The notes beneath the pieces are model-generated. The model was not told where the DNA came from. It saw only the letters and a list, made by a program, of their open reading frames with translations, and ran no database searches. 64,000 nt of DNA from a bacterium (GTDB lineage: Bacteria; SAR324; XYD2-FULL-50-16). Numbering within the stretch: position 1 is the stretch's first letter; each line of letters starts with the position of its first letter. Of this stretch, positions 10,882 to 59,596 are shown one piece after another. Where the stretch lies: the NCBI GenBank assembly GCA_024275165.1, contig JAJRZQ010000003.1, forward strand, positions 117,763 to 181,762, written 5' to 3'. A program made the position numbers and the translations under genes.

Positions 10882-10909
10882 AAAAAAGGCCGCGCACCCG
10901 GCCTTTTTT
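10882..10909. terminator. Bidirectional rho-independent-type terminator
   Basis: AAAAAAGGCCGCGCACCCGGCCTTTTTT between convergent tusA and DUF1641-like gene. Confidence 0.8.
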
Positions 10910-10924
10910 ACCCCTTCAGCGACC

Positions 10925-11656
10925 TCAACCAGAGGAGGAACCCACCCCCTTGTTGTGTCCCAAGGCCCCAGCGAGTTCCATCGCCAAGCCTAGGCCCTGT
11001 TGTACCTCTGGTCTTTTCAAAGCGCCGAGCAGAGCAAAAATCCCCTTCACTGGTTTGACCTTCGTCAAATCCAATTCAGCAAGCCCGCAAACCAGCGTCA
11101 TACCAAGCTGATGAAGCTTATCCAAGCCCACAAACCCACCTTGCTGCCGGAAGTCTTCCAACTTGGCCGTGACCTCGTCTAAGGCAATTTTCGGAATATC
11201 CCCCACCGTGCTTTTGAGTTCCAAGCCGGCAGATAAAAGCCGCAAGCCCTCGGCGAGATTGCCCATATTCAACAGGCTTTGCCGCAAAAGACTCCCTAGG
11301 TCGTCGAAGGAAAAGCGATAGGCCACCGAGTCCAGGCCCGCGATAGCCTCGTCCAAGGCTTGGCGAACAATGGGTTCCGCGGTGTGTTTGAGGTCCATCA
11401 ACCCGTTTAAAAGCTTTAGGCCTTCCGCTAGGCTCCCGCTGGCCGCTAAGCCGTTGGCGATCAAATCCTCCAAGGACTCCATGGAAACCTTATCCCCTAA
11501 ATGTTCAAGTTTTTCAATTGCCTCCCCCATTAAGTCCCGCAGGATCGGCTCTAGGGTGGCGCGGAACTCCGCTAAGGGTTTGCCCCTGTTTTTCAATTCT
11601 TGGACTTCTTGGCGCAGAGCCTTCAGCTCTGCTAAGATCAATTCTTCATTGTTCAT
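10925..11656 (-). CDS. DUF1641-like protein adjacent to an FAD oxidoreductase
   Basis: Repeated 'LGDLxxxSLLNxGNLAEGLRLLSAGLELK' helices; start ATG 11656; directly downstream of flavoprotein. Confidence 0.65.
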   Translation of the reverse strand: MNNEELILAELKALRQEVQELKNRGKPLAEFRATLEPILRDLMGEAIEKLEHLGDKVSMESLEDLIANGLAASGSLAEGLKLLNGLMDLKHTAEPIVRQALDEAIAGLDSVAYRFSFDDLGSLLRQSLLNMGNLAEGLRLLSAGLELKSTVGDIPKIALDEVTAKLEDFRQQGGFVGLDKLHQLGMTLVCGLAELDLTKVKPVKGIFALLGALKRPEVQQGLGLAMELAGALGHNKGVGSSSG

Positions 11657-23452: not shown

Positions 23453-23586
23453 TGGGAAGCTCCGCGTTTTTCAGAGTTTCCTTTAATTTACATACTCCGA
23501 CCCGAAAAGCCTAAGGGGAACTAAGGCTTGAGGGCGTTAGGGTCTTTTGGGAAACGAAAAGGCCTTCCATTTTGAAAAGGAGTTTC

Positions 23587-24792
23587 ATGCTGACCCTTGA
23601 TCAAGCCTTGGTGGAAATACTGCGCCAAGCCGAACCGCTTCCTCCCCAACAAATCAATCTAGCTCAGTCCTTGGGTCGGGTTTTGCGCCAAGACCTCACC
23701 ACCGACCGCCCCCTTCCTCCCTTTGATCGGGTGACCATGGACGGCTTTGCCGTGCGAAGCGCCGACTTCGCCTTATCCAGCCCCAGCTTAAAAATCATCG
23801 GGGAATTGGCTGCCGGGGTAGAGGCAAAATTTCAACTCCAACCGGGTCAAGCCATTCGTATTATGACCGGCGCCGTCGCCCCCCCTGGGGCCGACGCGGT
23901 GATCCAGGTGGAAAAAACCCAAGTCCAGGGGGATCAGGTAAGCTTTTCTGTGGGTAAGATCGACCCAGGGTTGAATATTGCTCAAAAAGGGGAAGACGCG
24001 CTAGCCGGTCATTGTTTTTTAAAGTCGGGCCCTTTCATCACCCCCGCTTTGCAGGCTTTTGCCGCCAGTATCGGCAAGGGGCGGCTTTGGGCCTCTCCTG
24101 ACTTGCGTCTAGCTGTACTTTCCACCGGAGATGAACTGGTGAGCCCTGAGCAAACCCCGCTGGCTTGGCAGATTCGCGATGCCAACGGCCCCGCCTTACA
24201 GGGGATGGCAGAAGATTTAAACCTCCAACCGAAATTTTTAGGGATTTGTCCGGATAAGGCAGAAGCGCTAAAAGCAAAAATCAGCGAGGGCTTGCAGGGG
24301 GATGTACTCTTGCTGAGCGGTGGGGTGAGCATGGGGGAGTATGATTTGGTGCCCAAGATCTTAAAGCAATTGGGGGTGAAAGAGGTCTTTCATCGAGTTT
24401 GGATTAAGCCGGGCAAACCCATTTGGTATGGCCGCGGCCCCGCGGGGACTCATGTCGTTGGGCTGCCGGGCAACCCCGTGAGCGCGCAAACGGGGTTTAA
24501 ACTCTTTGTCGAGCCTTTAATCTTAAGCCTTTTGGGACATCAAGACCCCCTGCCGACTTATCTCAAACTGCCTTTACTGCAAGGGGTGAAGAAAAAAACA
24601 GAGCGGGAAGCTCTGATTCCCGCCAAAATCATCACCAAGGCAGGGCAAAGTGGGGCAGAAGAAGTCAAAATTTCAGGAAGTGGGGATTTTTCCAACCTCA
24701 TCTTGAGTGATGGACTCTTGCGCCTGCCCGCGGAGGCGACCAGAGCGGAGGAGGGGGACCTCGTTCCCTTTCTTGCTTGGAGGCGGCGATGA
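23587..24792 (+). CDS. moeA: Molybdopterin molybdotransferase MoeA
   Basis: DRPLPPFDRVTMDGFAVR...IMTGAVAPPGADAVIQVEK...LLSGGVSMGEYDLV...KPGKPIWYG...GLPGNPVSAQTGF; start after AAGGAG. Confidence 0.93.
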   Translation: MLTLDQALVEILRQAEPLPPQQINLAQSLGRVLRQDLTTDRPLPPFDRVTMDGFAVRSADFALSSPSLKIIGELAAGVEAKFQLQPGQAIRIMTGAVAPPGADAVIQVEKTQVQGDQVSFSVGKIDPGLNIAQKGEDALAGHCFLKSGPFITPALQAFAASIGKGRLWASPDLRLAVLSTGDELVSPEQTPLAWQIRDANGPALQGMAEDLNLQPKFLGICPDKAEALKAKISEGLQGDVLLLSGGVSMGEYDLVPKILKQLGVKEVFHRVWIKPGKPIWYGRGPAGTHVVGLPGNPVSAQTGFKLFVEPLILSLLGHQDPLPTYLKLPLLQGVKKKTEREALIPAKIITKAGQSGAEEVKISGSGDFSNLILSDGLLRLPAEATRAEEGDLVPFLAWRRR

Positions 24793-48355: not shown

Positions 48356-48434
48356 GATTTTTTCCCCATTGTAGTTTTTTCGAATTGAAGTATAAATAGG
48401 GTAAAAGCTTTTTTCTCTTTTTTTGATTTCCTTC

Positions 48435-50711
48435 ATGCAAAATTTAAAAAAATACTGGATATTTGGATCTGTCTCCCTCACCCTCTTGATCCTGCTGCTT
48501 TGGGGTGGGTCCCTTTATCATCGCTGGCAACATACCCGTAACCTCGCTCTGGAACAGGCGAGATACTTTTTGGATAAAGACCAAGCCTTAAGGGCTTGGG
48601 TCGCCGAGCAAGGAGGAGTGTATGTGAAAACCAGCCCTCAGGTCGAGCCCAATCCCTATCTGAAATTTCATGCCAAGCGTGATTTACGGGTTCAAGGCAT
48701 GAATTTGACCCTCGTCAACCCCGCTTATTTCATGCGCCTCTTGTACCAAGCCGCCCAGGGGCAATTTGGCCCCAAAAGCCACCTCACCAGCCTCAAGCCG
48801 TTAAACTCCATCAATCAACCCGACGAGTGGGAAAAGCAAGGCCTGCTGGAACTCGAAAAAGGAAAAAAAAAGGAATGGATTGGGTTTGTGGATTTTGAGG
48901 GAAAGCCCTATTTACGCGTGATACGCGCCTTGAGGGTCAAACAACCCTGCATGCGATGTCATGCCGCGCAGGGATATCAAGTGGGGGACCTGCGCGGAGG
49001 CTTGACCATCAACCTCCCCATGCAACCCTTTTTGGCCGAGCAGTTAAACACATTTAGGATAGAAGCCTTCACCACTCTCTTGCTTTGGGCTATCGCTCTG
49101 TTGGGGTTAAGGCAAACTCTATTGTGGATGAAGCGGGACCAGCAAAAAATCTCGAATCTGGCCGATCGGCTGCAAGCGGTGACCGATTCCATGGGGGAAG
49201 GGGTGCTGGTACAAAACTCCTCGGATCGCATCACTTTAGCCAACCCTAAGGTAGAGCGACTTTTCGGTTGGAAAGAAGAAGAACTTTTAGACAAACATCC
49301 CTGCTTTATTTTTCATGCCCACCCAGAAAACCCGGAAACTTTATGCGAGCAATGCCGGCAGAGAGAAAAAGAGGGTCGGATAGACACAGAGTTTACCGAA
49401 TCGCTTTATCGCCATCAAACAGGGGAGTGGATCCCCGTATCCATTCTCACGACCCCTTTGATCCATCACCAAGCCCACGGGGGGTGCGTTACCGTTATTC
49501 GGGATATTCGCAAACAAAAGGAGTTGGAAACCCAACTCAAGCAAGCCAAAGAATTATCTGAAAAAACGAGCCAAATTAAAACCAACTTCTTGAACATTGT
49601 GGGGCATGAATTGCGCACCCCCTTGCATGGAATCATGGGAATGACCGCGGTGATGTATGATGAAATCACGGATTCTCAATTAAGAGAGCATGTACAGGTG
49701 GTGCAGGAATCGGGAAAAAACCTGTTGCAAATTGTAAACAACATCTTTGACTTCAGCCGACTCGAAGCAGCGCAGCTCACCGCGAGAGAAGAGAAATTTT
49801 CCATCCAACAGGTGTTGACCAACCTCCTGCAACTCTTTCGTGCCTCCGCAGAGCTCAAGGGGCTAAAACTGGAGGTCAACCTTTCTGACAGCCTACCCGC
49901 CTATAATCTAGGCGATGGAGAAATCCTGCAACGCATCTTGAGTCAATTGCTTTCCAACGCGATTAAATTTAGCCCCCAGGGAACCGTCACGCTTTCTGCC
50001 CTCCCCTTAGAGGGGCAGGAGAACTGGACTCGCTTTGAGGTCTGTGATGAGGGAATTGGAATTTCAGAAGAACAAAAAACAAAAATCTACAGCAAATTCA
50101 CCCAAGTTGACGATTCCTACTCTAGAAGTTATAGCGGTATGGGGATTGGGCTCACGCTGGTGGATCGGTTGGTCCGACTTTTGAAGGGCCGTCATGGGGT
50201 ACAAAGCGAAGTCGGTCAAGGGAGCTGTTTTTGGTTGGAGGCCCCCCTCCCCTCCACGACTCAGCCCTGGGAAATCGAGCAGGGACCCTCTCTACAGAGC
50301 CGAAAAATTCAAGCGCAAACCTCTTCGCCCAAACCTAGAATCTTGCTGGTTGACGATAATCCGATCAATCAGCGGATGATGTCAAAATACTTAGAAAAGT
50401 TGGGCATTGAAGCCGACGAGGTCCCCAGTGGAAAAATAGCCTTAGAATACCTGAAAAAACAAGACTATGGCTTGATTTTTATGGACTGCGCCATGCCGGA
50501 TATGAATGGCTTTCAATGCGCTCGCTTAATTCGGGCCATGGAAAAGGCAGAGGAACTCAAGGGACATATCGCGATTGTCGCTTTAACCGCCTGGGTGGAC
50601 GAAGAAAATATTGAGCAATGTAAAGAGGCCGGAATGGATGATTATATCGGCAAACCCATGGACTTAACCCACGCGAAAGCGGTCATTGAAAAATTCTTAG
50701 GCCCCATTTAG
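48435..50711 (+). CDS. Hybrid sensor histidine kinase: DUF3365-like heme-binding (CxxCH) sensor, PAS, HisKA/HATPase, receiver
   Basis: QPCMRCHAAQGYQVGDLRGGLTINLP; FLNIVGHELRTPLHGIMGM; CDEGIGISEEQ; canonical receiver LLVDDNPINQR...FMDCAMPDMNG...GKPM. Confidence 0.88.
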   Translation: MQNLKKYWIFGSVSLTLLILLLWGGSLYHRWQHTRNLALEQARYFLDKDQALRAWVAEQGGVYVKTSPQVEPNPYLKFHAKRDLRVQGMNLTLVNPAYFMRLLYQAAQGQFGPKSHLTSLKPLNSINQPDEWEKQGLLELEKGKKKEWIGFVDFEGKPYLRVIRALRVKQPCMRCHAAQGYQVGDLRGGLTINLPMQPFLAEQLNTFRIEAFTTLLLWAIALLGLRQTLLWMKRDQQKISNLADRLQAVTDSMGEGVLVQNSSDRITLANPKVERLFGWKEEELLDKHPCFIFHAHPENPETLCEQCRQREKEGRIDTEFTESLYRHQTGEWIPVSILTTPLIHHQAHGGCVTVIRDIRKQKELETQLKQAKELSEKTSQIKTNFLNIVGHELRTPLHGIMGMTAVMYDEITDSQLREHVQVVQESGKNLLQIVNNIFDFSRLEAAQLTAREEKFSIQQVLTNLLQLFRASAELKGLKLEVNLSDSLPAYNLGDGEILQRILSQLLSNAIKFSPQGTVTLSALPLEGQENWTRFEVCDEGIGISEEQKTKIYSKFTQVDDSYSRSYSGMGIGLTLVDRLVRLLKGRHGVQSEVGQGSCFWLEAPLPSTTQPWEIEQGPSLQSRKIQAQTSSPKPRILLVDDNPINQRMMSKYLEKLGIEADEVPSGKIALEYLKKQDYGLIFMDCAMPDMNGFQCARLIRAMEKAEELKGHIAIVALTAWVDEENIEQCKEAGMDDYIGKPMDLTHAKAVIEKFLGPI

Positions 50712-51580
50712 GGCAATTGCAGGGTCCCTTGGGCAAATTGGATGGCTTGGCCCCCCACTTGAATCACCCAATCCTGGGTTTCTTTGTGGACAACAACCTC
50801 GATCAGACTGGGGCGACCCATCTCCCCACCCTGTTGATTGGTAAGGCGCAAGTTGGTTTTGCCAAAGAGATGGTGCTGGGCCAAATAGGCGCCTAAAGCC
50901 CCTTGGGCAGAGCCCGTTGCCGGGTCTTCCTTGACCCCTTGTAAAGGGGCAAAGGCACGGCAGCGGCAGCCGGAACCATCCTTTAAGGGGGCAAAGGCCA
51001 TGATTTTATCGGTCTCAAAGCCCTCAAAGACCTTCTGCCAAGGAGGGAACGACAACTCAATCCGCGACAGGCTATCGGCCCTTGCCAGGGGAACAAAAAG
51101 CCAAGGGATACCCGTACTCACCGCTTGGCAAGGCAGGCCGGGGAACAAATCAGCGGGGCTTAAACCCAAAAGCCCGGTCAGGGCGATGAGATCGTGAAAA
51201 TTGGCTCCAAAAACCGGCGACAGTTGCGACATAAAGAGTTGATCCCCCTCCAACCAGAGGGGGATGATCCCCACTTGGGTCTCTAGGGTAATGTTTTTTT
51301 TGCCGCCGGAGCTTTGTTGGGCGAGGTGCCAGCCAGCCCCTAGAAGAGGGTGACCGGCAAAGGGCACTTCGCATTTGGGGGTAAAGATGCGTACCGCCGC
51401 GTCATGTTGGGAATTTGCGGGAGGAAAAAGAAACAAAGTTTCAGAAAAGTTGAATTCCCACGCGATTTCTTGCATGGTCGCGCTCTCCAACCCCTCTCGC
51501 CCCTCGACAATCGCCAGGGGGTTGCCTTGAAAAGGCTGATCAGTAAAAACATCCAAAATATAATAACGCATATCCATCAA
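50708..51580 (-). CDS. PhzF-family isomerase/epimerase-like protein
   Basis: YYILDVFTDQPFQGNPLAIVEG...FNFSETLFLFPP...IFTPKCEVPFAGHPLLGAGW...EDPATGSAQGALGAYL. Confidence 0.9.
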   Translation of the reverse strand: MMDMRYYILDVFTDQPFQGNPLAIVEGREGLESATMQEIAWEFNFSETLFLFPPANSQHDAAVRIFTPKCEVPFAGHPLLGAGWHLAQQSSGGKKNITLETQVGIIPLWLEGDQLFMSQLSPVFGANFHDLIALTGLLGLSPADLFPGLPCQAVSTGIPWLFVPLARADSLSRIELSFPPWQKVFEGFETDKIMAFAPLKDGSGCRCRAFAPLQGVKEDPATGSAQGALGAYLAQHHLFGKTNLRLTNQQGGEMGRPSLIEVVVHKETQDWVIQVGGQAIQFAQGTLQLP

Positions 51581-51700: not shown

Positions 51701-53119
51701 ATGCAGGTACCCATGAAATCTATACTCATTCTCACCCCTTTTCAAGAGCATTTAGAAGCTTTAAAACAGGCCACTGAAGGCCGTTTTGAGATTCACGCCC
51801 TAACCGATTACCCAAGTTGCCTGCAAGAAGCCCAGAAAAGGCGCTATGACATTTTATTTTTTGAGATCACCTGTCTGCCCATTCCAAAAGATAAAATGAT
51901 CCCCGCCAGCCACTTTGAACGGATCTTTCAAGAACTGAAAAGCCAATACCCCACCTTGCCTCTGATGGCCATCGGGAGCAGCGAGCAAACAAAAAACCTG
52001 GTACAGGCCGTGCGGGCTGGGGCGGACCGCTACCTAACCACCCCCTTGGAGTCTCAAGCCCTGCAATTAGGAATCGCCAGATTACAGGAAAAGGCCCATG
52101 TGCAGGGGGAACTGGAATATTTACGCAACAATTTTTGGAGCGACGAGAAGCTTGAGGTCACCAAAACCTACTCTCCGGTGATGAAAAAGCTCTTTTTTGA
52201 GCTCCAGGCCGTTGCCCCGACCGATTCCACCGTGCTGTTACTCGGTGAATCCGGGGTGGGCAAGGGAGTTTTGGCCAAGTTTATCCACCGGACCAGTGCC
52301 CGGGCGCAGGGCCCCTTTGTCCATGTCCATTGCGGGGCCATTCCGGAAAACTTGATCGAGTCCGAGTTGTTTGGTCACGAAAAAGGAGCCTTTACGGGGG
52401 CAACGAGCCGCAAGTTGGGCCGCTTTGAAATCGCCCGCAAGGGAACCATTTTTTTAGATGAAATCGGCACCATTTCCCTTTCGGCGCAAACCAAGCTCTT
52501 GCAGGTCTTGCAAGACAACCTGCTCATTCGGGTGGGCGGCGAAAGCATGATCGAGACCGACACCCGGGTGATTGCGGCAACCAACAACAACCTACTGGAA
52601 ATGAGCCGCGCCGGGAGCTTTCGCGAAGACCTCTATTACCGGCTTAATGTGTTCCCCCTCACGGTACCCCCCTTGAGAGAGCGTTTGGAAGACATCCCCA
52701 TTTTAGCGGAAAATTGCTTGAACAAGCTTCAAGGAAAATACCAAAAACGCTTAGAAGGCATCAGTCCCGAGACCTTGCGGGCTTTGCGAAATTACGACTT
52801 TCCGGGCAATATCCGAGAATTGGAAAATATCTTGGAGCGGGCCTATATTTTGGAAAAAAGGCGAACTCTAAGTTTGACAAGCCTTCCTTTAGACTTGGCT
52901 CCGGAAAGCAGACAGGCGATTTTTAGCTTTGCCTCTGGCGACACCTTGGCCGAGGTACGGCAAAAGGCAATTGACGAGGTGGAAAAGGCCTACCTCCATC
53001 AATTGCTTTCAACTCACAAAGGCCGGGTCAACCTCACTGCCGAAACAGCCGGATTGGGCGTACGGCAATTGCGGGTACTCATGCAAAAACATCACTTAAA
53101 AAAAGAAGCCTACAAGTAG
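51701..53119 (+). CDS. Sigma-54-dependent transcriptional activator with degenerate receiver domain
   Basis: Walker A GESGVGKGVLAKFIH; ESELFGHEKGAFTGATSRKLGRFE; GTIFLDEIG; NIRELENILERA; receiver lacks canonical acidic/Lys residues. Confidence 0.88.
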   Translation: MQVPMKSILILTPFQEHLEALKQATEGRFEIHALTDYPSCLQEAQKRRYDILFFEITCLPIPKDKMIPASHFERIFQELKSQYPTLPLMAIGSSEQTKNLVQAVRAGADRYLTTPLESQALQLGIARLQEKAHVQGELEYLRNNFWSDEKLEVTKTYSPVMKKLFFELQAVAPTDSTVLLLGESGVGKGVLAKFIHRTSARAQGPFVHVHCGAIPENLIESELFGHEKGAFTGATSRKLGRFEIARKGTIFLDEIGTISLSAQTKLLQVLQDNLLIRVGGESMIETDTRVIAATNNNLLEMSRAGSFREDLYYRLNVFPLTVPPLRERLEDIPILAENCLNKLQGKYQKRLEGISPETLRALRNYDFPGNIRELENILERAYILEKRRTLSLTSLPLDLAPESRQAIFSFASGDTLAEVRQKAIDEVEKAYLHQLLSTHKGRVNLTAETAGLGVRQLRVLMQKHHLKKEAYK

Positions 53120-53366
53120 AATTTCTTTAAATACCCTCCTAGTCTGCATCTAAGAGAGAAAAAATATTTTTCCATTCCCCCCTACAAGTCTCTTGACCAG
53201 AGGCCTAAAAGCAATGGCATCGAAAGATCGGCATTTAAAATTCCTATTTCCCCCAACCAAGCATTAAAAATGCAGATTTACTATTTAACTAGCTAAAATT
53301 AAAAGATAATTAGAATCACCCAACCTTCCTTTCCACCTTCCTTGCCACAAAAGGTAGTTTATTTTC

Positions 53367-53381
53367 GGCACTGTCTGTGCC
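53367..53381. promoter_or_regulatory. Inverted repeat GGCAC-tgtct-GTGCC, candidate activator upstream site
   Basis: 5-bp perfect arms about 65 bp upstream of the sigma-54-like -24 element. Confidence 0.35.
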
Positions 53382-53446
53382 TAATTTTAATTCCCTTCTC
53401 CTTAATCAAATAAAATAAAACAATTATATCAATGTCTTAAATGCAA

Positions 53447-53462
53447 TGGCACGGTTGATGAA
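53447..53462 (+). promoter_or_regulatory. Candidate sigma-54 promoter of the micro-ORF array
   Basis: TGGCACG-GTTG-ATGAA: full -24 match (TGGCACG), weaker -12 (ATGAA versus TTGCW); adjacent to a GAFTGA-type activator gene. Confidence 0.5.
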
Positions 53463-53517
53463 ATATACTTGGCATGGGTTGAATGAATCAACCTACACAC
53501 CAAACTTGAGGAGAGTC

Positions 53518-53583
53518 ATGAAAGTCATCCATTCCGTTATTGCCGTCTACGCCATTGTAGCGCTTACTCTGTTGCCCCTATAA
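53518..53583 (+). CDS. 21-aa single-TM peptide, copy 1
   Basis: GAGGAGagtcATG...: MKVIHSVIAVYAIVALTLLPL*; 87-bp tandem period. Confidence 0.65.
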   Translation: MKVIHSVIAVYAIVALTLLPL

Positions 53584-53604
53584 AACACCAAACCAAGGAG
53601 AGTC

Positions 53605-53670
53605 ATGAAAGTCATCAATTCCGTTATTGCCGTCTACGCCATTGTAGCGCTTACTCTGTTGACCCTATAA
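53605..53670 (+). CDS. 21-aa single-TM peptide, copy 2
   Basis: AAGGAGagtcATG...: MKVINSVIAVYAIVALTLLTL*. Confidence 0.65.
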   Translation: MKVINSVIAVYAIVALTLLTL

Positions 53671-53691
53671 AACACCAAACCAAGGAGAATC

Positions 53692-53757
53692 ATGAAAGTC
53701 ATCCATTCCGTTATTGCCGTCTACGCCATTGTAGCGCTTACTCTGTTGACCCTATAA
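53692..53757 (+). CDS. 21-aa single-TM peptide, copy 3
   Basis: AAGGAGaatcATG...: MKVIHSVIAVYAIVALTLLTL*. Confidence 0.65.
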   Translation: MKVIHSVIAVYAIVALTLLTL

Positions 53758-53861
53758 AACACCAAACCAAGGAGCAGTCAGGGGGGCAATTATTCTCTGG
53801 AGAGATTGAACCCGATTGCCCTTTTTTGTTCTGCCAAAGCCCCCTTGGATAAGGAGAAAGC

Positions 53862-53957
53862 ATGAAAAATCAAATCAATTCGCTAAAGTTTTTGCGCAGT
53901 CAATTTAGCATTCTGGTTGCTTTGTATTTGCTGGGTCTTTCCGCCCTCGCTTCTTAA
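53862..53957 (+). CDS. 31-aa hydrophobic peptide downstream of the array
   Basis: AAGGAGaaagcATG...: MKNQINSLKFLRSQFSILVALYLLGLSALAS*. Confidence 0.55.
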   Translation: MKNQINSLKFLRSQFSILVALYLLGLSALAS

Positions 53958-53972
53958 AAAAAAAGCGACTCC

Positions 53973-54013
53973 CATGCCTTGGAAGGGATTCCCTTCCAAG
54001 GCATGCGGGCTTT
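53973..54013 (+). terminator. Strong hairpin ending the micro-ORF transcript
   Basis: CATGCCTTGGAAGGG-att-CCCTTCCAAGGCATG (15-bp perfect arms) followed by cgggctttt. Confidence 0.75.
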
Positions 54014-57853: not shown

Positions 57854-58360
57854 CTAGCTATTGGGGATGTGTTGGGGTGCCATTACAAAGGCGTGTTCAT
57901 AACAATAAAGGCCAATCAGGGTAGACAGGGCTGCTAAGGGAGCCAGACCCGCGTAGATTAAACCGATAGGGAAAAAGGCCCCTAAGCCGATGGCCCCGAA
58001 CCAAAAAAGGTTTTTGTATTTTCCCTGGGTAATCATATGCGCCGCCGCCCTTGCCGTGTCGGTAGAATGCTTGGAACCGAACTCGCCTAAGAGGATCATC
58101 AACAGGTTCAAGGTCAAACTAATCGTAAAGGCGTGAAAGCTTAGCTTGGCAAAGCCCTCCTCAATGGGGGTGAGGGCGCTTAAAATGGTGAGGGCCGCGC
58201 CGCCGGCCATGATCGCCTGCACCAAGAAATGAAACGGCAAAAGCGGACTCTGCCAAAAGTCACGGCCTTCGGCTTGACCAAAGAGGTAAGCGGTATAAAT
58301 CGCCGCCCCAATGGCCAAGGGAAAACCCAAATACATCGCGAGCTTGCGCCAGAGCAGCAT
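57854..58360 (-). CDS. C-terminal part of NrfD/SoeC-like membrane subunit
   Basis: LGFPLAIGAAIYTAYLFGQAEGRDFWQSPLLPFHFLVQAIMAGGAAL; same frame immediately after the TAA of 58361..59404. Confidence 0.75.
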   Translation of the reverse strand: MLLWRKLAMYLGFPLAIGAAIYTAYLFGQAEGRDFWQSPLLPFHFLVQAIMAGGAALTILSALTPIEEGFAKLSFHAFTISLTLNLLMILLGEFGSKHSTDTARAAAHMITQGKYKNLFWFGAIGLGAFFPIGLIYAGLAPLAALSTLIGLYCYEHAFVMAPQHIPNS

Positions 58361-59404
58361 TTAAATGTCTAAAAAGCCCAGATAAACCGCCAGTTCCAAG
58401 AGCCACCAAGCCCCCACCACATGGCTGAAGGAGATCAAGATATAGGCCCCCCGCACCAACCAACTTTTAAATTGGGGTTTAAAGATGACCCGTAAAAAAC
58501 GCTCGGGCCGTTCGAGGTCGGCAACCAAGAAAAGGGTGGTTAAAAGGGAAAAGGCGATGACCGCCGCGCCACTGATCAAGCTGGTCAAAAGATCCAACCC
58601 ACCCCAACCGTAGATAAAGGTAGTCGCCATGAGCATAAAAATACCGGAAGCAATCCCCTTAGTCACCAAATAGCTGGGGACCTGCCAATGCCAGGGCACC
58701 TTGTGCTGGGCATTGTAGGTATTTTGTACCATTTGCTCGCTCCCACCAAAATAGAGGGTGGAGGGCTCTAAGGCTTCCCCTTCGGTTAGCTTATCGCTTT
58801 TGATATCGCTCCACAAAAAGTGTTTGGATTGGCCTTGAGTCACCGTGGGGGTTAAGGCGGCCTGATGCCCCTCAACATAAAAAACCTTGGGGCCGGTGCC
58901 CTGTTCTGGTTTTCTTACGGTTACATTTTCTTTCGCCAAGACCCGACTGATTTCCGAACTCGGGTCGGCCAAGTCCCCGGCGACAATCGCATGCTCGGGG
59001 CAAACCACTGCGCAGGCGGGCTCCATCCCCACCTCTAAACGGTGGGAGCAGTAATTGCATTTTTGCGCTGTCTTGGTTTCGGGGTCAATGTAGATGGAGT
59101 CATAGGGGCAGGCTTGCATACAAGACTTGCAGCCGATACAAAGGTCGGAGTCGTAGCCGACAATGCCGTCTGGCCTCTGGTGCATGGCCGTAACAGGGCA
59201 GATTTCCACGCAAGGGGGATTGGCGCATTGGTTGCAACGGTTGACCTGAAAATTCCTGCGGACATCGGGGTAGTTGCCCACTTCGGTATATTTGACCCAG
59301 GTGCGAAATACCCCTAAGGGAACTTGGTTTTCACTTTTGCAAGCGGTTGAACAGGCATGGCAGCCAATACACTTGCGATTATTGATAATAAAGCCGTAAT
59401 TCAT
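58361..59404 (-). CDS. soeB: 4Fe-4S ferredoxin (SoeB-like) fused to N-terminal part of an NrfD-like membrane domain
   Basis: CIGCHACSTACKSENQVPLGVFRTWV, CNQCANPPCVEICPVTA, CIGCKSCMQACPYD, CNYC...CAVVCPEHA; then TM region VTKGIASGIFMLMATTF...ERPERFLRVIFKPQFKSWLVRGAYILISF. Confidence 0.85.
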   Translation of the reverse strand: MNYGFIINNRKCIGCHACSTACKSENQVPLGVFRTWVKYTEVGNYPDVRRNFQVNRCNQCANPPCVEICPVTAMHQRPDGIVGYDSDLCIGCKSCMQACPYDSIYIDPETKTAQKCNYCSHRLEVGMEPACAVVCPEHAIVAGDLADPSSEISRVLAKENVTVRKPEQGTGPKVFYVEGHQAALTPTVTQGQSKHFLWSDIKSDKLTEGEALEPSTLYFGGSEQMVQNTYNAQHKVPWHWQVPSYLVTKGIASGIFMLMATTFIYGWGGLDLLTSLISGAAVIAFSLLTTLFLVADLERPERFLRVIFKPQFKSWLVRGAYILISFSHVVGAWWLLELAVYLGFLDI

Positions 59405-59596
59405 CCTTCCTTTGCGTAGATGGGGTTTGGGGCCTTGGGTGAGGAAGCGGTTAGCCACGCCCCCCGGTGTAATCAAATCGAAATAACCAGGCTTGCCCTG
59501 CCCTGAAGGCAAACGGGTCTGAGGTCAAGATCACTTGACTCCAGGCGGCCCAACAGGGAGGGAAGATGCGAGGAAACGATTTTACTATTTATATGT

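Follow-up and report, generated by a model that had tools for sequence, protein, structure and literature searches.

A tandem array of very short open reading frames lies directly downstream of a gene for a sigma-54 enhancer-binding protein (bEBP), a switch of the stress type, in a sulfur-metabolising bacterium, within the 64-kb stretch of DNA that was analysed (the window). Its anatomy, its regulator and a second array, found in a different genus of the family, point to an operon of inner-membrane micropeptides that would be induced through the bEBP and sigma-54, amplified in dosage by repetition and directed at a membrane target. The probability of this reading is put at roughly 0.55, a figure that chiefly reflects what it says of anatomy and regulation.

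Anatomy of the array

The array opens with a repeat unit of 92 nt, which a repeat search found in three copies of 98% identity (53509-53600, 53596-53687 and 53683-53774) with start-to-start spacings of 87 and 87 nt. Each copy encodes on the plus strand a 21-aa peptide with a single transmembrane (TM) segment, i.e., micro-ORF 1 (53518-53583, MKVIHSVIAVYAIVALTLLPL), micro-ORF 2 (53605-53670, MKVINSVIAVYAIVALTLLTL) and micro-ORF 3 (53692-53757, MKVIHSVIAVYAIVALTLLTL). Micro-ORF 4 (53862-53957, plus strand, MKNQINSLKFLRSQFSILVALYLLGLSALAS) encodes a hydrophobic peptide of 31 aa with the C-terminus LSALAS, and an AGGAG or AAGGAG Shine-Dalgarno (SD) sequence stands 5' of each of the four. Direct reading and the repeat search confirm the earlier note, which had described three hydrophobic 21-aa ORFs with their own SDs at an exact 87-bp period, a fourth SD-led hydrophobic ORF of 31 aa and a perfect hairpin behind them; the hairpin between ORF3 and ORF4, the sigma-54-type promoter and the adjoining bEBP gene are elements beyond that description. 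The array sits in an interval of its own behind an AT-rich leader of about 400 bp, and its DNA occurs only once in its genome.

The three repeat copies vary at three positions, one of them in the leader (G/A) and the others giving H/N and P/T. Their common frame was scored as a single event owing to the recent origin of the copies, which are too alike for a test of selection on the peptide. With one repeat copy kept, two qualifying ORFs (ATG, SD and TM segment, 17-42 aa) were counted against a shuffled mean of 0.014; 3 of 3000 shuffles (0.1%) produced at least two such independent ORFs, which makes a chance origin unlikely. The whole window holds five qualifying ORFs, compared with 0.4 in shuffles. 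The array is best regarded as a putative operon of single-pass micropeptides that chance is unlikely to have produced.

The hairpin behind the array (53973-54005) separates it from a converging TorD-like gene. It has perfect arms of 16 nt with 1 nt between them in the repeat search and folds into 15 bp with a 3-nt loop (z -5.2). Its T-run comprises nine T on the minus strand but no more than TTTT on the other, so that the hairpin probably serves both converging transcripts as a bidirectional terminator. Another terminator-like hairpin, GGGCAAT...ATTGCCC followed by TTTTTT, stands between ORF3 and ORF4 on the plus strand (53781-53828, stem about 53781-53822; -24.5 kcal/mol, z -1.9). The overall folding of the array transcript is unremarkable (z -0.48). 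A role of the array as an attenuator was rejected, because no co-directional gene comes after it ahead of the terminator.

Further upstream of the bEBP gene lie a PhzF-like gene on the minus strand, a hybrid kinase with a Tll0287-type sensor domain and dsrO/dsrP, and the converging downstream genes form a CISM operon of a TorD-like chaperone, a molybdopterin subunit and FeS/NrfD proteins. The earlier note had suggested a small subunit of a membrane complex as one option; for the neighbouring Dsr complex this is weakened, because dsrP and the micro-ORFs of the second genome, G004, are on different contigs (C43 and C6); the linkage is not retained. Three further features of the window may be recorded separately. 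The hybrid histidine kinase (48423-50711, plus strand), encoded in the same region as dsrOP, carries CMRCH in its Tll0287-type domain and is a possible c-haem redox sensor. The CISM gene for an FeS-NrfD fusion (57854-59512, minus strand) has a 556-codon frame that appears to be interrupted within its NrfD portion by one in-frame TAA, as a real split, a pseudogene or an assembly error; in G004, a similar frame runs without a stop for 528 codons. A molybdenum/tungsten cofactor riboswitch (RF01055) is found at 23483-23598 on the plus strand (62.6 bits).

The adjoining regulator and the promoter

The bEBP gene (51704-53119, plus strand) was assigned a start at 51704 because the ORF at 51350 shows homology only from about residue 119-122 onwards. 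The predicted protein combines a degenerate receiver, an AAA+ domain with an intact GAFTGA motif and a Fis-type helix-turn-helix. In the tree, it forms one group (94/99) with a paralog in the same genome, G000, and with the bEBP of G004, the latter being its nearest relative at 51-54% identity; the placement of the paralog is unsure owing to its very long branch. All three proteins carry Glu at the position of the receiver phospho-Asp, suggesting that activation may proceed without phosphorylation, and the other orthologs that have a receiver keep Asp. GAFTGA is likewise intact in G004. The paralog (L154 8089-9510, minus strand, contig C15), in which the motif reads GAFQGA, is probably no longer a sigma-54 activator, and its flanks hold no micro-ORFs.

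When 80 other bEBP loci in public genomes were scanned under strict criteria, together with loci of the class, only scattered single matches and no micro-ORF cluster appeared. No such micro-ORFs accompany the Asp-keeping orthologs of G009, G006, G015 and G023, and no cluster was found at the ortholog loci of G027, Calditrichaeota and Desulfospira. The G015 ortholog is flanked by two paralogous secreted-looking proteins of 126 aa (L159 7485-7865, minus strand, and 10908-11288, plus strand).

A consensus match to a sigma-54-type promoter, TGGCACGGTTGATGAA (53447-53462, plus strand), is located 55 nt 5' of the first ATG of the array. Its -12 element is imperfect, with ATGA instead of TTGC, and under a hand-made -24/-12 matrix the site ties for third best among all positions on both strands of the 64 kb. 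A genome search pattern, composed after the sites had been seen so as to cover those of the window and of G004, gave 14 matches in G000 and 4 with the reversed control. Only three of the 14 are intergenic, and these precede the array, an amtB-like transporter gene and an 81-aa ORF. The intergenic matches in G004 include those of a flgF-like flagellar rod gene, an Hsp20-like gene, the counterpart of the 81-aa ORF and two micro-ORF promoters; amtB-like and flgF-like are what we take these genes to be from their translations. Genes for ammonium transporters and flagella are among the classical targets of sigma-54, and their presence behind matches therefore supports the pattern. A conserved sigma-54-type site is also present 5' of an ORF of about 80 aa, MIEKTL(R/K)..., in both genomes (L172, G000:C17:27527; L165, G004:C3:15392).

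The features expected of a sigma-54 operon with its own activator thus occur together, namely a -24/-12 site (by consensus only), the gene of a GAFTGA activator and rpoN, which both genomes carry. It is likely that the array is translated and driven by sigma-54, and, with slightly less assurance, that its activator is the bEBP encoded next to it. A palindrome, GGCAC-TGTCT-GTGCC (53366-53381), which precedes the -24 element by about 65 bp, is a candidate activator site; it is not common to G004, and no convincing enhancer motif was conserved between the upstream regions of the window and G004. A divergent promoter-like sequence, GTGCCA-18-(T/A)ATAAT with a TG, overlaps the sigma-54 -24 element both in the window (53423-53452, minus strand) and in the second genome (L115 11378-11407, plus strand), an overlap that may be due to chance in AT-rich DNA.

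A second array in another genus

The bEBP gene of G004 is also adjoined by micro-ORFs, three in number, which encode single-TM peptides of 24-25 aa (MNPAYGAWWVVALVWAFGIFLLASH, MTHYGAWFFVFGVWAFGVFLLSSH and MTHYGAWFAVSLVWIFGIFLLASH) of the type YGAW...FGxFLLxSH. They are spaced at 450-520 bp and are convergent with the bEBP gene, whereas the window array is co-directional with it. Sigma-54-type sites (CGGCACGAACCTTGGA and TGGCACATTCCTTGGA) precede two of the three at 85 and 86 nt 5' of the ATG, with leaders that can be roughly aligned; the third has no such site. One of the micro-ORFs is followed by a hairpin and T8. The pairwise differences at codon positions 1/2/3 are 5/3/11, 2/4/9 and 6/4/10, and this concentration at third positions indicates that the peptide is under selection; 15 of 25 alignment columns are invariant. 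The peptides of G004 and of the window show no recognisable homology, and a relationship between ORF4 and the peptides of G004, which share the ending G-x-x-x-L-A-S, was dropped because the match is too short to claim. What the two arrays have in common is the regulator, the promoter type, the peptide size, a single TM segment and a copy number of three. The proposal of the earlier note that a polycistronic message encodes single-pass membrane peptides is backed by the anatomy of the window array and by the codon-position bias of this independent one.

Searches for relatives placed the peptides outside described families. The exact 21-aa peptide was found in 0 of 57 other genomes (58 searched, including its own), the ORF4 peptide only in its own genome among 52, and a profile of the G004 peptides gave matches beyond noise only in G004 among 52 genomes, the others being weak and partial. 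There was no significant match in Pfam, NCBIfam or PADLOC, no match in the PDB by sequence or in viral contigs, and two matches in PHROGs were not significant (E 0.1-0.2). Rfam contained no family matching the arrays.

The confinement of the exact peptides to one genome would also suit free-standing signal peptides, secreted precursors or recently amplified debris of a decayed gene, and ORF4 has a basic N-terminus and an AxA-like end (ALAS) that could be a signal-peptidase site. Such an origin is very improbable, given that two independent types of SD-bearing ORF lie within 700 bp, that the arrangement in G004 matches and its peptides are selected, and that no exporter or receptor gene was noted beside both arrays.

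A different possibility is that the transcript is a regulatory RNA resembling CrcZ or CsrB, whose AAGGAG/GGA repeats titrate CsrA or Hfq, with the ORFs incidental. The gene crcZ is a sigma-54 gene directly downstream of the bEBP gene cbrB (PMC8871633), just as the array adjoins a bEBP gene and has a sigma-54-type site by consensus match; the array holds four or five repeated GGA sites, and csrA is present in both genomes. All seven micro-ORFs of the two genomes are nevertheless hydrophobic and have a start, an SD and a stop, the third-position differences in G004 (11, 9 and 10) exceed the 2-6 at first and second positions, the G004 units form no dense GGA array, and the folding of the window transcript is not unusual. 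The regulatory RNA is accordingly disfavoured.

The earlier note had also compared the peptides with type I toxins, and this comparison is not supported as stated. In such a reading, depolarising peptides of the Ibs, Zor or Ldr type would be silenced by antisense RNA, by the 5'-UTR or by strict sigma-54 control. ZorO was found by a search for tandemly duplicated small hydrophobic proteins, and repeated hydrophobic peptides of 19-35 aa are the hallmark in searches for such toxins (PMC8309996), which the length, hydrophobicity and repetition of the array peptides fit. The spacing in G004 also leaves room for RNAs. Against this, no sigma-70 promoter was found on the opposite strand in the window array or that of G004, the divergent promoter-like sites lying only upstream of ORF1, and no Rfam antitoxin and no toxin family described in Pfam, NCBIfam or PADLOC was matched. 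The 87-bp period leaves 21 nt between units, into which an antisense or antitoxin cassette for each unit would not fit. Moreover, the array has strong SDs and a sigma-54-type promoter, and the G004 peptides seem to be constrained in a more sequence-specific way than would be necessary for a generic depolariser such as IbsC. A type I toxin is possible though unlikely, slightly less so than a regulatory RNA.

Proposed function and implications

Transcription, translation, activation by the bEBP and membrane insertion are predicted from the sequence. In the favoured scheme of induced inner-membrane micropeptides, the adjacent bEBP would activate the sigma-54 promoter, the array operon would be transcribed up to the hairpin terminator, and repetition of the first ORF would raise the dosage of its peptide. 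The micropeptides may insert in the inner membrane. By analogy with known small proteins, their most likely action once induced would be to bind or modulate a membrane protein, or to modulate the membrane potential, with the number of copies fixing the dosage. Action on a membrane protein through binding or modulation, as opposed to toxicity, is rated at even odds.

The occurrence of different micropeptides beside the same regulator in two genera points to an unrecognised set of switch-controlled membrane micropeptides rather than chance sequence. Only tentatively can this be extended to a new regulatory class, in which sigma-54 activators with a Glu receiver would each control private, rapidly evolving, copy-amplified TM micropeptides of 21-31 aa; peptide sequence would vary by genus, whereas location, length, the type of promoter and the number of copies would be retained. 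As ORFs this short are discarded by annotation pipelines, micropeptide operons of uncultured lineages stay invisible. The search anchored on the regulator (a bEBP neighbour, a sigma-54 site and a repeated TM micro-ORF) gave a second example with unrelated peptides in another genus and offers a route to further arrays. If the scheme is confirmed, it would be a case in which an activator-dependent promoter drives a membrane micropeptide whose dosage is fixed by gene amplification, and the question of its binding partners would become directly testable.

Comparison with known systems

No precedent for sigma-54-controlled tandem membrane micropeptides was found in the literature searched, and the closest systems each share part of the arrangement. 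In the PspF-Psp response, a sigma-54 bEBP controls small inner-membrane proteins. The window resembles it in having such a regulator beside genes for putative small inner-membrane proteins, which it would presumably control; however, the Psp proteins are larger and conserved, the window bEBP has a receiver-like domain, and no tested product is Psp-like. The cbrB-crcZ pair of Pseudomonas likewise consists of a bEBP gene followed by a short sigma-54-type transcription unit. CrcZ, however, is non-coding and acts on Hfq/Crc, whereas the window units carry SD-led ORFs and the G004 peptide is constrained.

MgtS, KdpF and CydX are established small TM proteins. Together with DinQ, another example (PMC3567139), they are like the predicted micropeptides in being single-pass inner-membrane proteins of 20-40 aa, and they are induced by stress or nutrients. 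They are normally encoded in single copy and act on a known complex, whereas the present peptides, without homology to them, occur in tandem copies next to a sigma-54 activator. The Ibs/Sib, Zor/Orz and Ldr/Rdl systems of E. coli share hydrophobic single-TM peptides of 19-35 aa and repeated copies. The window array differs from them in the lack of an antisense RNA signal or sequence match, and in its dense, operonic 87-bp repeats behind one apparent promoter, which is of the sigma-54 type and lies beside a bEBP gene.
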